64,000 nt of DNA from contig JAPYMA010000544.1 of the NCBI GenBank assembly GCA_035041965.1, positions 1 to 64,000 of the forward strand, written 5' to 3'. A program made the translations under genes and the position numbers. Below, in pieces: positions 3,173 through 8,278 of this stretch. The notes beneath the pieces are model-generated. The model saw only the letters and a program-made list of their open reading frames with translations, did no database searches and had not been told where the DNA came from. Position 1 is the first letter of the stretch. Every line of letters begins with the position of its first letter. This DNA comes from Anisakis pegreffii. Lineage: Eukaryota; Nematoda; Chromadorea; Rhabditida; Anisakidae.

Positions 3173-3975
3173 TAGGATAAGCTGAAACACTGGTTCAAGT
3201 CAACCGTAGATGAACCATGGAGGAGCGAGCCTGATTCAAACACACACACGGAAAATCGAAAGCAAGTAACAGTGATTCATAATAATAAATTTAGCGTTAT
3301 AATTGTAACCAAGTCGAATATCATTCTCAAAACATAAAATATAAATCTAAAGAATTTCAGATATAACCCAAACAGAACGCTTGATATCTTCAATTCAAAT
3401 CTCAAAGGCAGATGATTCCCACAAACAAATCCTAAGCAACAACAAAATGTTATGAGAAAATCTATTACAGGTCGGAAGTTAAGTATGGGTACTTAAGGAG
3501 AGAAGTGCGGAAGAACGGGGTCGGTCGGTCGGTCAATTCATTCAATCAGTCAGTCAGTCAGTCAATCAATCCAATAATTCAGTCCAAATAAATCAGAAGT
3601 CAAGTATAATGTTCAGCCAATATATCAGCTCTCATTGAAGTCGTCAAGTGATTAATCTATCTGTCGCGAATCGCATGATTCACGATAAAGATGATTTCAT
3701 TCATTAATTTTCTCTCCCAATGAATAAGCTATGGACAGATGTTCTATCTCTTTCAAAAGCGTATTGTAAAATTTGTGTTGAGTAATACAATCACTTTATC
3801 TATGTATTGAAATTTTTGTATTAAGCATCTTATGAATAAGCTTCTATCTGTACCATTCAAACGTCACTTAACCTTTGTCTTCTCCATGAATAGGTTAAAT
3901 AATTTGTATTGAATATCACACTGTGCAGGTGCTCCTCCGATAGACACGTGCATTATTCGTTACGCTAATTTTCAC

Positions 3976-3982
3976 TATAAAA
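3976..3982 (+). promoter_or_regulatory. TATA box of the solo LTR
   Basis: TATAAAA preceded by CAC and followed by GG, about 315 bp into the LTR. With AATAAA at 4356-4361 it gives the U3-R-U5 layout expected of an LTR promoter. Transcription would be predicted to start near 4005. Confidence 0.55.
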
Positions 3983-4079
3983 GGATGATGCTTTCATTCG
4001 ATAGCATCGTCCGTTGCGTCTTTCGTTCAATCGTGCGTCTTGTTCGTTCATCCGGGTAAACCGATATTCCCCAGCTCCG

Positions 4080-4305
4080 TTGTCCCTCGAATCAATCACT
4101 CAGTCGCTCGAATTCGTTTCTATCCCCCGTCATCCCTCGACTCGATCACTCGATCTTTCGATTTCGTTTCAATCCCCCGTTATCCTTCGACTCAACCACT
4201 CAGTCGTTAGATTTCGTCTCAATCCCTCGTTATCCCTCGACTCAACCACTCAGTCGTCAGATTTCGTTTCAATTCCCATTATCCCTCGACTCAATCACTG
4301 AATCG
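4080..4305 (+). repeat. 50-bp tandem repeat inside the solo LTR
   Basis: About four imperfect units, each containing CGACTCAACCACTCAGTCGT and then TTTCGTTTCAATCCC. The frame at 4014-4301 is open only because the 50-bp unit is stop-poor; it is not considered a gene. Confidence 0.75.
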
Positions 4306-4355
4306 TTCAAGTCATTCTTCCGTCGATTATTGTTTATTTGCTGCCTGTTGCTCAG

Positions 4356-4361
4356 AATAAA
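4356..4361 (+). terminator. Polyadenylation signal of the solo LTR
   Basis: AATAAA downstream of the TATA box and about 85 bp before the LTR end, the usual position for an R-region poly(A) signal. Confidence 0.5.
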
Positions 4362-4572
4362 TATTCATTTCGTCGTAAATAGCGACCCACATTCAAATAC
4401 CACTAGACGCCTATATTCAATCAATATAGTCGCCGCTAGTTCCGACACTATCATCAGTGATTCAGAAATATCTTAATTGTATTAAGTAATTGACTATATT
4501 CTGTGAAGACTACATTACTGTTAGGACCTCCGTAGGTCCCCCATCTATTGTTGCCGACTGTATTGTAATCAA

Positions 4573-6111: not shown

Positions 6112-6181
6112 ATTCTCGTAAGTACTCCTGGTACTGCCGGTAAGCCACTTTATATCTTTCGACCAGAGACGGTCTTGCCGC

Positions 6182-6192
6182 AGGGTGGGAGG
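6182..6192 (+). promoter_or_regulatory. Polypurine tract before LTR 2
   Basis: AGGGTGGGAGG abuts the TGTAACC start of the second LTR. The same tract precedes LTR 3 at 7679-7689. This is the position where plus-strand priming occurs in LTR elements. Confidence 0.6.
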
Positions 6193-6811
6193 TGTAACCA
6201 AGTCGATCAATATTCTCAAAATATAAAATATAAAACCTAAGGAATTTCAGATATAACTCAAAGATGTGACAACATCGAATATCATTCTCAAAACATAAAA
6301 TATAAATCTGAAGAATTTCAGATATAACCCAAACAGAACGATTGATATCTTCAAGTCAAATCTCAATGGCAAAAGATTCCCACAGACAAAATCCTAAGCA
6401 GCAACAAAATATTGTGAGAAAATCTATTACAGGTCGGAAGTCAAGAATGGGTACTTAAAGACAGAGCGCGAAGGAACGAGGTCGGTCGGTCAGTTAATCA
6501 GTCAAGCAGTCAATTCAGTTCGTCAGCGTGTCACTCAGTGATCATATTGAAATTACATTGAAGCCGTCAGAAGCAATATTCCGGAATTCATATTAATTGT
6601 ATTAATCGAAATATATTCTGTGAAGAGATAATTGTTGTATGGGCCTAAGTAGGTCCTTTAGTTGTTACTGCCGACTATACTGTATGATTGAAAGATTATA
6701 TTGTCAGAGTTATTGTATTGTTGAATTATATTTACGCTTCCGCTGCGGTTAATAATAAATCCTATACTAAATTCTCAATTGTATATCCACCGACTCCATC
6801 CCATTTTCACT
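6193..6811 (+). repeat. LTR 2 of helicase element
   Basis: 619 bp, more diverged than LTRs 1 and 3 and containing a short internal duplication of its 5' part (two AAAACATAAAATATAAA-like blocks). It ends TTTTCACT and then jumps directly into mid-helicase sequence, so the primer-binding site and the helicase 5' half were deleted from the second unit. The hairpin arm reads GGGCCTAAGTAGGTCC. Confidence 0.75.
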
Positions 6812-7609
6812 CTGATGACCTTCTGAAATATGGGTGCGACAGCGCCATCGCTAGTATAGCTCGGAGAAATGTTATCCCCATGTTGTCTCTCAATATTTCG
6901 TATCGTTCCCACCCCTTCCTCACATTCTGCCTATCCGAAACAGTATATAATGGTCAGCTCAGACCGGGTATTTCCGCTGATGACCGTTCATTACTTATTC
7001 ATTCTGATTTTCCCTTACCAATCCCATCCATTCCTCTTGCCCTTATTCACATATCTAGTTCTGATGTAATAAATACCTGGCGATCACGCTACAACCGTGA
7101 TCAAGAAGAAGCCGCAATTCACATTGCCCAGCGTTTGGCCCTCACTATTGCTCCCCATCAAATCACTATCTTATGTTTCTACCTTGTGAGTCGTGATTAC
7201 ATCCGCTCTCAACTGGATGGTACATCTACTGACTGTCATACCATCGACAGCTTCCAAGGTAAAGAAAATGATGTAATTATTCTCGTTACGACACGTTCAT
7301 ATGACTGTCGTGTCACAGATGACCAAGTCAAATTCTTTGCGGATCCTCAACGCATTACCGTGGCGTTGTCACGTGCACGTCAAGGACATTTCATTGTTGC
7401 TGATTTTCCCATGTTACTGAAATATGACATCTGGTAGACATATTTGCGTCTAGCCACCCAAGAAACGCCCATAGTGAACAGGCAATACGTTGGTGCTATC
7501 TTCGACGATGTTCATCGCAATCATCGCAATCTTTTGGTGGATGCGCATGGCCAACCATTCCTGCCTCCCGACACTATCTTCATTAATAGGAAATGGCATC
7601 AATATTAAA
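6688..7609 (+). pseudogene. Deleted second copy of the SF1 helicase
   Basis: The frame begins in LTR 2 and enters the helicase at DDLLKYGCDS, so motifs I-III are missing while motifs IV, V (TIDSFQGKEN) and VI (VALSRAR) remain. A TAG at 7435-7437 replaces a CAG of the first copy. Beyond it the frame continues to NRKWHQY and a natural stop near 7609. Differences from the first copy are mostly in third codon positions. The copy cannot be an active helicase because Walker A and B are absent. Confidence 0.85.
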
Positions 7610-7689
7610 CTCTCGTAAGTACTCACGGTACTGCAGGTAAGCCAAGTTATATTTTTCGACCAGAGACGGTCTTGCCGCAGGGTGGGAGG

Positions 7690-8278
7690 TGTAACCAAGT
7701 CGAATATCATTCTCAAAACATAAAATATAAATCTAAAGGATTTAAGATATAACCCAAACAGAACGCTTGATATCTTCAATTCAAATCTCAAAGGCAGATG
7801 ATTCCCACAAACAAATCCTAAGCAACAACAAAATGTTATGAGAAAATCTATTACAGGTCGGAAGTGAAGTATGGGCACTTGAGGAGAGAAGTGCGAAAGA
7901 ACGGGGTCGGTCGGTCGGTCAATTCATTCAGTCAGTCAATCAATCCAATAATTCAGTCCAAATAAATCAGAAGTCAAGTATAATGTTCGGTCAATATATC
8001 AGCTCTCATTGAAGTCGTCAAGTGATTAATCTATCATCAGTGATTCAGAAATATCTTAATTGTATTAAGTAATTGACTATATTCTGTGAAGACTACATTA
8101 CTGTTAGGACCTCCGTAGGTCCCCCATCTATTGTTGCCGACTGTATTGTAATCAATTGAAAAGTTATACTGTCATAATCATTGTATTGTTAAACTATAAT
8201 CACGCTTCCATTGCGTTTGACAATAAATTCTATATTAAACTCTCAATTGCATATCCACCGACATTCATCATTTTCACT
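7690..8278 (+). repeat. LTR 3 of helicase element (empty-site copy)
   Basis: 589 bp, close to LTR 1 but without the nested solo LTR. It ends TTTTCACT followed by TAAT, the right-hand target duplication. Confidence 0.8.

Follow-up and report, generated by a model that had tools for sequence, protein, structure and literature searches.

A long terminal repeat insertion in Anisakis pegreffii as a likely deletion derivative of an envelope-bearing Ty3/gypsy-type lineage with a UPF1-like helicase gene

Long terminal repeat (LTR) elements of bdelloid rotifers carry an enzymatic open reading frame (ORF), ORF3, behind pol, encoding an esterase or a DEDDy exonuclease (PMC5408684). In insects, TRAS, Jockey and Copia fusions, mostly long interspersed nuclear elements (LINEs), carry a superfamily 1 (SF1) helicase fused to element proteins (PMC5563155). 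The helicases of the insect LINE and Copia elements are virus-type (PMC5563155, PMC6338049). Cer1 of C. elegans makes the accessory protein CERV, a novel export factor, from a spliced mRNA whose exons partly share the gag frame (PMC10309623). Atlas virus of hookworm, a BEL/Pao element, encodes Gag-Pol-Env in one polyprotein with a phlebovirus-like envelope (PMC9094657). Here we analyze an LTR-element insertion containing SF1 helicase sequences in a 64,000-nucleotide stretch of the Anisakis pegreffii genome (hereafter the window), which is positions 1-64000 of contig C400 in an assembly of 122.7 Mb and 1740 contigs. The insertion likely arose by deletion from a member of an envelope-bearing nematode lineage of Ty3/gypsy type, in which a UPF1-like SF1 helicase is the 3′ gene. 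The architecture of that lineage, gag-env-pol and then the helicase, can be stated with high confidence. Among the top-ranked matches in the open-access literature searched, we found neither a Ty3/gypsy-type element with a UPF1-like helicase gene nor a gag-env-pol gene order.

The insertion occupies positions 3304-8278 and contains an internal LTR and two helicase pieces. A preliminary description of this sequence had reported three LTR-like repeats, TAAT flanks on both sides, TGGTAGCAGCG after LTR 1 and AGGGTGGGAGG before LTRs 2 and 3, all of which our analysis confirmed. The TAAT target-site duplication is located at 3300-3303 and 8279-8282. Comparison of the repeats, all on the forward strand, showed that LTR 1 (3304-4695) and LTR 3 (7690-8278) form a pair. 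Over the 346 aligned bases of one shared part, 8 are mismatched and 12 gap positions come in addition; the other shared part has 4 mismatches over 248. The internal LTR 2 (6193-6811) has a small internal duplication near its start. Its Kimura two-parameter (K2P) distance to LTR 3 is 0.25, which indicates a diverged subfamily. LTR 1 is a 606 bp LTR interrupted by a 781-bp insert (3662-4442, forward), which is the main source of its extra length. The insert has TG...CA ends and a CTATC duplication (3657-3661 and 4443-4447), and is presumably a solo LTR from another family. Because TAAT is found at both outer ends, LTR 1 to LTR 3 was inserted as one unit of 4189 bp, excluding the nested insert.

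The primer binding site TGGTAGCAGCG (4695-4705, forward) corresponds to initiator tRNA-Met, and its first T is the last base of the LTR. It fits the acceptor end of a tRNA beginning AGCAGCG. Genome matches to this tRNA start number 35, compared to 0 for the control, and both AGCAGCG tRNA loci scanned are tRNA-Met genes (n=2). An array of 32 initiator-tRNA-Met gene starts with a spacing of ~170 bp is located at C1689:56037-61332, as identified by pattern match. The polypurine tract AGGGTGGGAGG abuts both LTR 2 (6182-6192) and LTR 3 (7679-7689) on the forward strand. The features of an LTR retrotransposon are all present: an LTR pair, a target-site duplication, a primer site and a polypurine tract. 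A genome-wide search found at least 53 match pieces of the LTR, counted in the 40 of its 91 candidates that were scored. The repeat ends behave as LTRs elsewhere, since five of the seven full-length loci tested have perfect 4-bp duplications (TAAT, GGTC, GCAC, GAAC and GTTC); we read these five as solo LTRs. The two loci without a duplication are a 5′ LTR before a primer site in C395 and a 3′ LTR behind a helicase in C1642. The match pieces and the perfect duplications exclude a chance origin of the LTR-like repeats.

The window helicase is encoded by a 528-codon open frame (4525-6111, forward), which contains the C-terminal part with motifs I-VI. The SF1 helicase and its motifs were correctly recognized at the outset, but the helicase is truncated at its 5′ end and its second piece is only half of it. 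No Met precedes motif I, and the first in-frame ATG, at 4777, is located after it. At the deletion junction (4706-4735, forward), where GGTAAAACTTTCG is present twice, the primer-site region runs straight into motif I. Protein alignment indicated that fuller copies are several hundred residues longer there. The junction rests on this alignment, as the window motif-I DNA was not found in C404 by exact string. The second helicase fragment (6814-7605, forward) begins mid-helicase directly at the end of LTR 2, comprises the 3′ half and has one in-frame TAG. Consistent with the initial view that this copy is an LTR retroelement without gag and pol, tblastn over positions 3304-8278 gave no match to gag, env or pol.

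A second contig, C399, shares the composite of LTR 2, half helicase and LTR 3 with the window. This contig begins within the first helicase unit. Its downstream DNA is unrelated to that of the window, with only chance-length matches in 1.5 kb. Neither gag nor pol was found in the C399 composite stretch examined (loci L002, L013 and L017). A composite without gag and pol at two or more places needs proteins supplied in trans. Together with the single target duplication shared by LTR 1 and LTR 3, this makes mobilization in trans, as originally suggested, the best reading, and it is quite likely that the window copy is a trans-mobilized derivative.

Fuller copies revealed the organization of the lineage. 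In the same genome, three diverged families have gag, an envelope-like glycoprotein, protease, reverse transcriptase (RT), ribonuclease H (RNase H) and integrase in this order, followed by the helicase, the polypurine tract and the LTR. The genome contains 38 helicase matches, with open frames of up to 1155 codons. In five contigs, C404, C625, C1642, C524 and C264, pol or part of it immediately precedes the helicase ORF. The helicase had been proposed to be the only gene of the element, captured or evolved by it. This does not hold for the family, in whose fuller copies the same helicase ORF is preceded by gag, pol and a gene for an envelope-like protein. These three are absent from the window copy, as is the N-terminal half of the helicase.

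Two contigs together cover most of the polyprotein. C577 (L051:1-2949, reverse strand) contains a 5′ LTR, the primer site and then a 983-codon open frame, which encodes gag (PF03732, zinc knuckle) and most of the envelope-like protein. In C524 (L050:2243-6757, reverse strand), one 1505-codon open frame encodes the envelope tail, protease, RT, RNase H and integrase. The residues at the end of the C577 frame are those at the start of the C524 frame, and the computed joined length is ~2474 residues. The Pfam order protease-RT-RNase H-integrase in C524 is that of Ty3/gypsy elements (Metaviridae), with the protease match (E=0.009) below the cut-off. The next frame in C524, 519 codons long, contains the N-terminal part of the helicase and then 3′ sequence, the helicase core being deleted. 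The borders of C12 are a CTAC duplication and two LTRs that differ at 9 of 556 bases; inside it are the primer site, the gag, envelope and protease parts, and most of the helicase. The C264 contig, from a diverged family whose helicase is 43% identical to that of the window, has gag, envelope, protease, part of RT, integrase and helicase between two LTR-like repeats.

The helicase goes with this RT lineage. RT at least 66% identical to the C625 query is found on seven contigs, and on all of these except C11 the helicase, or its N-terminal part, is present as well. RT matches at 29-38% identity are found on 14 further contigs with no helicase match nearby, and C400 itself has a helicase 41 kb away. 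The 3′ end is also linked to the helicase. A polypurine tract and LTR start are present at 18 of 25 helicase loci, so that the helicase is not consistently outside the repeats. The 25 were counted from 30 loci, leaving out L031, L034, L036, L038 and L040 as pieces of copies already counted. In 16 of the 18, these signals are within about 240 bp behind the helicase match. They are farther behind it in L020 and before it in L029, which are, with L025, pieces of one C56 region.

A conserved motif, AGACCAGAGNCGGTCTT, is located just upstream of the polypurine tract. It is retained in all three diverged families, and the C264 family has it in duplicate. In the window the conserved motif CGACCAGAGACGGTCTT, which is able to pair as a hairpin, is found at 6160-6176 and again at 7657-7673, both on the forward strand. 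Allowing at most one mismatch, AGACCAGAGNCGGTCTT has 29 genome matches compared to 1 for the control, and 24 of the 29 belong to loci that have this helicase. When the 3′ region was folded, a hairpin formed in three of the four stretches, with energies not beyond chance (no significant z-score). Since the folding is no better than chance, we claim only the sequence motif as conserved. The motif is possibly an RNA signal.

The window helicase matches Pfam AAA_12 with E=3.4e-30. Motifs I-VI and the AAA_11/AAA_12 profile identify it as a UPF1-like SF1 helicase. In a profile search of solved structures NAM7/UPF1 ranked at the top, and UPF1/NAM7 and IGHMBP2 are the nearest. We rejected a virus-derived helicase, as in insects, on the profile scores, with AAA_12 (105.5 bits) far above Viral_helicase1 (36.2 bits). 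Relatives of the helicase were not found in viral_contigs. The N-terminal zinc-binding CH domain of UPF1 was not found by Pfam in 967 of the 1135 residues of L012, the first 168 being outside the scan, and none is listed for the full-length protein P0001. P0001 (Anisakis simplex, 1104 aa) is the best helicase match in a database of 5.8 billion proteins, and is 86% identical to the C404 copy and 98% to the C1642 copy. Five of seven aligned copies have DEAG as motif II.

The ratio of nonsynonymous to synonymous substitution rates (dN/dS) was compared among C404, C1642, C625, C12, C264, C526 and the window. It is 0.105-0.176 in the 7 of 21 pairs that were computable, two of which have dS >2; synonymous sites are saturated in the other 14. 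These values point to strong purifying selection on the helicase. In Foldseek searches with a helicase model, IGHMBP2, UPF1 and SETX lead. A search of the same model with VIA matched Aquarius, UPF1, Sen1 and IGHMBP2. With a root-mean-square deviation of about 9-24 in the top rows and the first 458 residues barely tested, these matches only agree with the sequence result. The C. elegans DNA2/NAM7-like helicase P0002 (1099 aa) finds its best matches in this genome mainly among the retroelement helicase copies. As introns break up host genes, this result does not establish descent; P0002 could be a domesticated or a donor relative.

The envelope-like protein is located between gag and protease in one frame, not behind pol as in the errantivirus and retrovirus order. 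By eye, its part in C577 has an RSRR-type site and a hydrophobic segment; it also contains an internal signal-like segment. The C577 match to the glycoprotein family PF24664 (E=9.9e-4) is below the cut-off, and that of the related protein P0011 (3.8e-8) is above it. The fold model of the envelope piece is poor, with a mean predicted local distance difference test score (pLDDT) of 36.8. P0011, P0014 (Globodera rostochiensis) and P0015 (Meloidogyne enterolobii) are single proteins of 2474-2517 aa, which matches the length computed for the joined C577 and C524 frames. BLAST gives the order gag, envelope, RT in all three, and Pfam places PF24664 ahead of the protease in the same three of four relatives scanned. 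The fourth, P0009, has no PF24664 match in the Pfam scan, yet BLAST finds an envelope part before its RT.

An RT tree of 63 rows was built from search hits, which include Baculo_F-bearing lepidopteran elements and no curated Ty3/gypsy reference elements. In it, 13 nematode rows and six others form one clade with support of 100/100. The three Anisakis families are together (98/87), and proteins with the envelope in the middle are found in both the Anisakis and the Meloidogyne/Globodera branches. The same envelope type is located before RT in the more distant P0025, P0028, P0030 and P0034, with a gag match before the envelope only in P0025 and P0030, and behind RT in P0047, P0048 and P0125. These two arrangements indicate that the envelope changed position at least once.

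Junctions between pol and the helicase suggested how the latter may be expressed. In all five (C404, C524, C1642, C625 and C264; C404 and C524 are nearly identical), a splice-acceptor-like CAG located behind the pol stop ends 1-9 bases before the helicase ATG. A donor-like CAAA|GTAAGT is found behind the primer site in C577 and C395. The acceptor-like site makes a separate spliced mRNA likely, and we consider it reasonably probable from these signals that the helicase is made from a separate cis- or trans-spliced mRNA.

Several observations weigh against the proposed architecture and origin. Among the copies examined, none has every part intact. C12 has lost RT, integrase and the start of the helicase by deletion, and the leader donor CAAA|GTAAGT is not present in it. 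C264 has several frame breaks and part of RT only, and its LTR-like repeats are 72-75% alike over stretches of about 108 bases. C577, C524 and C404 are cut by contig ends. At 7 of the 25 helicase loci the polypurine tract and LTR start are absent, including C636 and C209, in which the helicase match reaches the C-terminus. Of these seven, C102 has a tract that is altered at one base, the 3′ motif is retained in C209 and C518, and C636 has neither. Motif II is DGAG in C1642 and DDAG in C264, with the other helicase motifs kept. The helicase fold model is of low confidence (mean pLDDT 39.6). Finally, C399 and the window form a mosaic, with a helicase dS of 0.16 compared to an LTR 2 K2P of 0.011. 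This points to recombination, and to a history more complex than simple copying.

We propose the following mechanism. The unspliced RNA would serve as both the genome and the mRNA for a Gag-Env-Pol polyprotein. The helicase would have its own mRNA, produced either by cis-splicing from the leader or by trans-splicing to a spliced leader, with the acceptor just before the ATG. The helicase may then unwind or remodel the element’s own long RNA in export, surveillance, packaging or reverse transcription. We put forward this action on its own RNA tentatively, as a possibility somewhat short of probable. In the window copy, the region that begins right after the primer site and extends to helicase motif I would have been lost, and the remainder joined to the second truncated unit and copied in trans as one unit. 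In a more speculative and rather unlikely scenario, an enveloped lineage moved its fusion glycoprotein into the middle of Gag-Pol, and the vacated spliced 3′ slot is used for a UPF1-like helicase whose task is to protect or remodel the genomic RNA of the element, for example against host UPF1-dependent surveillance.

More specific roles of the helicase are less probable than action on the element’s RNA in general. Within the particle, it may unwind structured RNA or RNA-DNA hybrids and so help reverse transcription or packaging. It is in the same element as RT, and insect LINE helicases have been suggested to co-operate with RT (PMC5563155). However, stop codons separate the helicase ORF from the polyprotein, so that its delivery into particles would not be automatic, and we regard this role as unlikely. 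Long 3′ untranslated regions trigger nonsense-mediated decay, and in the unspliced RNA the pol stop codon is followed by >3 kb. A helicase that competes with host UPF1 (SMG-2) might therefore let the genomic RNA escape decay. The nearest solved structures and the lack of a CH domain in the Pfam results are consistent with this idea. However, resemblance to UPF1-family proteins is not in itself proof of a function in decay, and such competition seems doubtful. Slightly more doubtful is a role against host small-RNA defence by unwinding of double-stranded RNA. Insect retrotransposon SF1 helicases have been reported to suppress silencing weakly in a plant system (PMC6338049), but those helicases are of RNA-virus type, unlike the one described here by its profile scores.

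Two other explanations concern the nature of the element. The basic element could be a non-autonomous LTR element that captured its own helicase and is mobilized by an unrelated autonomous element. The window copy and the C399 stretch, neither with gag or pol, fit such an element. However, fuller copies of the same family have these genes and env upstream of the same helicase ORF, and the window helicase begins at motif I, as expected after a deletion. This makes an independent capture very improbable. That the helicase belongs to a host UPF1-like gene family with retroelements merely inserted alongside is the least credible explanation and was rejected: nematodes do have UPF1-like genes, and the C. 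elegans 1099-aa protein is distantly similar (32% over 30% of the query), but in three diverged families the helicase end is followed in turn by the 3′ motif, the polypurine tract and the LTR start, the C12 helicase is inside a unit bounded by a target duplication, and some retroelement helicases are encoded by long uninterrupted frames, unlike the AAA_12 matches on C423, C642, C148, C907 and C1352, which are short exon-sized pieces.

Other remains of helicase elements are found in the window. The region 40501-51363 contains at least two further degenerate ones, one with gag and envelope pieces and then helicase. In tblastn searches, a degenerate relative of the diverged C264 family at 41377-42718 (forward) has a gag zinc-knuckle piece, envelope pieces and then a helicase piece. 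Degenerate helicase pieces are located at 46859-51363 (forward), with an N-terminal part at 46859-47791 and C264-like core pieces at 48833-51363. The flanks of the insertion at 2717-3055 and 9055-9500 form a direct repeat unrelated to the LTRs, whose four pieces are 93-100% alike and about 6.34-6.45 kb apart. An exact 53-bp tandem duplication is found at 8721-8826, and an imperfect repeat array with 27-bp spacing at 9206-9393. An open frame at 60241-60756 on the reverse strand has a weak C2H2 zinc-finger match.

That LTR elements can capture enzyme genes is already known; a cellular-type UPF1-like helicase as the third ORF of a Ty3/gypsy-type element was not found in the literature searched. 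If the helicase acts on element RNA, this would be a natural case of a mobile element with its own version of a host RNA-surveillance motor. It would then offer a direct way to study the means by which nematode retroelements protect long unspliced RNA from destruction. A second question, posed by the Gag-Env-Pol polyprotein, is how a glycoprotein is threaded through the membrane between two cytosolic parts. The Meloidogyne and Globodera elements (P0014 and P0015, with the relative P0011) are in one RT clade with those of Anisakis (100/100), and share gag, the PF24664 envelope-like protein, protease, RT, RNase H and integrase in one protein. Among 7993 candidates scored, the helicase search gave no match from Meloidogyne or Globodera, the DNA downstream of their elements being outside the search. 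The bdelloid rotifer elements resemble the Anisakis element in having an extra enzyme ORF behind pol, and a helicase, a term that appears once in PMC5408684, is not among the ORF3 types in the sections used. The insect helicase retrotransposons share an SF1 helicase, whereas the Anisakis helicase is UPF1-like and encoded by a separate ORF in an LTR element. Atlas virus shares an envelope within the polyprotein, but differs in gene order and in its BEL/Pao class. Cer1 is, like the Anisakis element, a nematode LTR element with an accessory protein, although CERV is not a helicase. The spliced mRNA considered likely for the helicase would parallel that of CERV.

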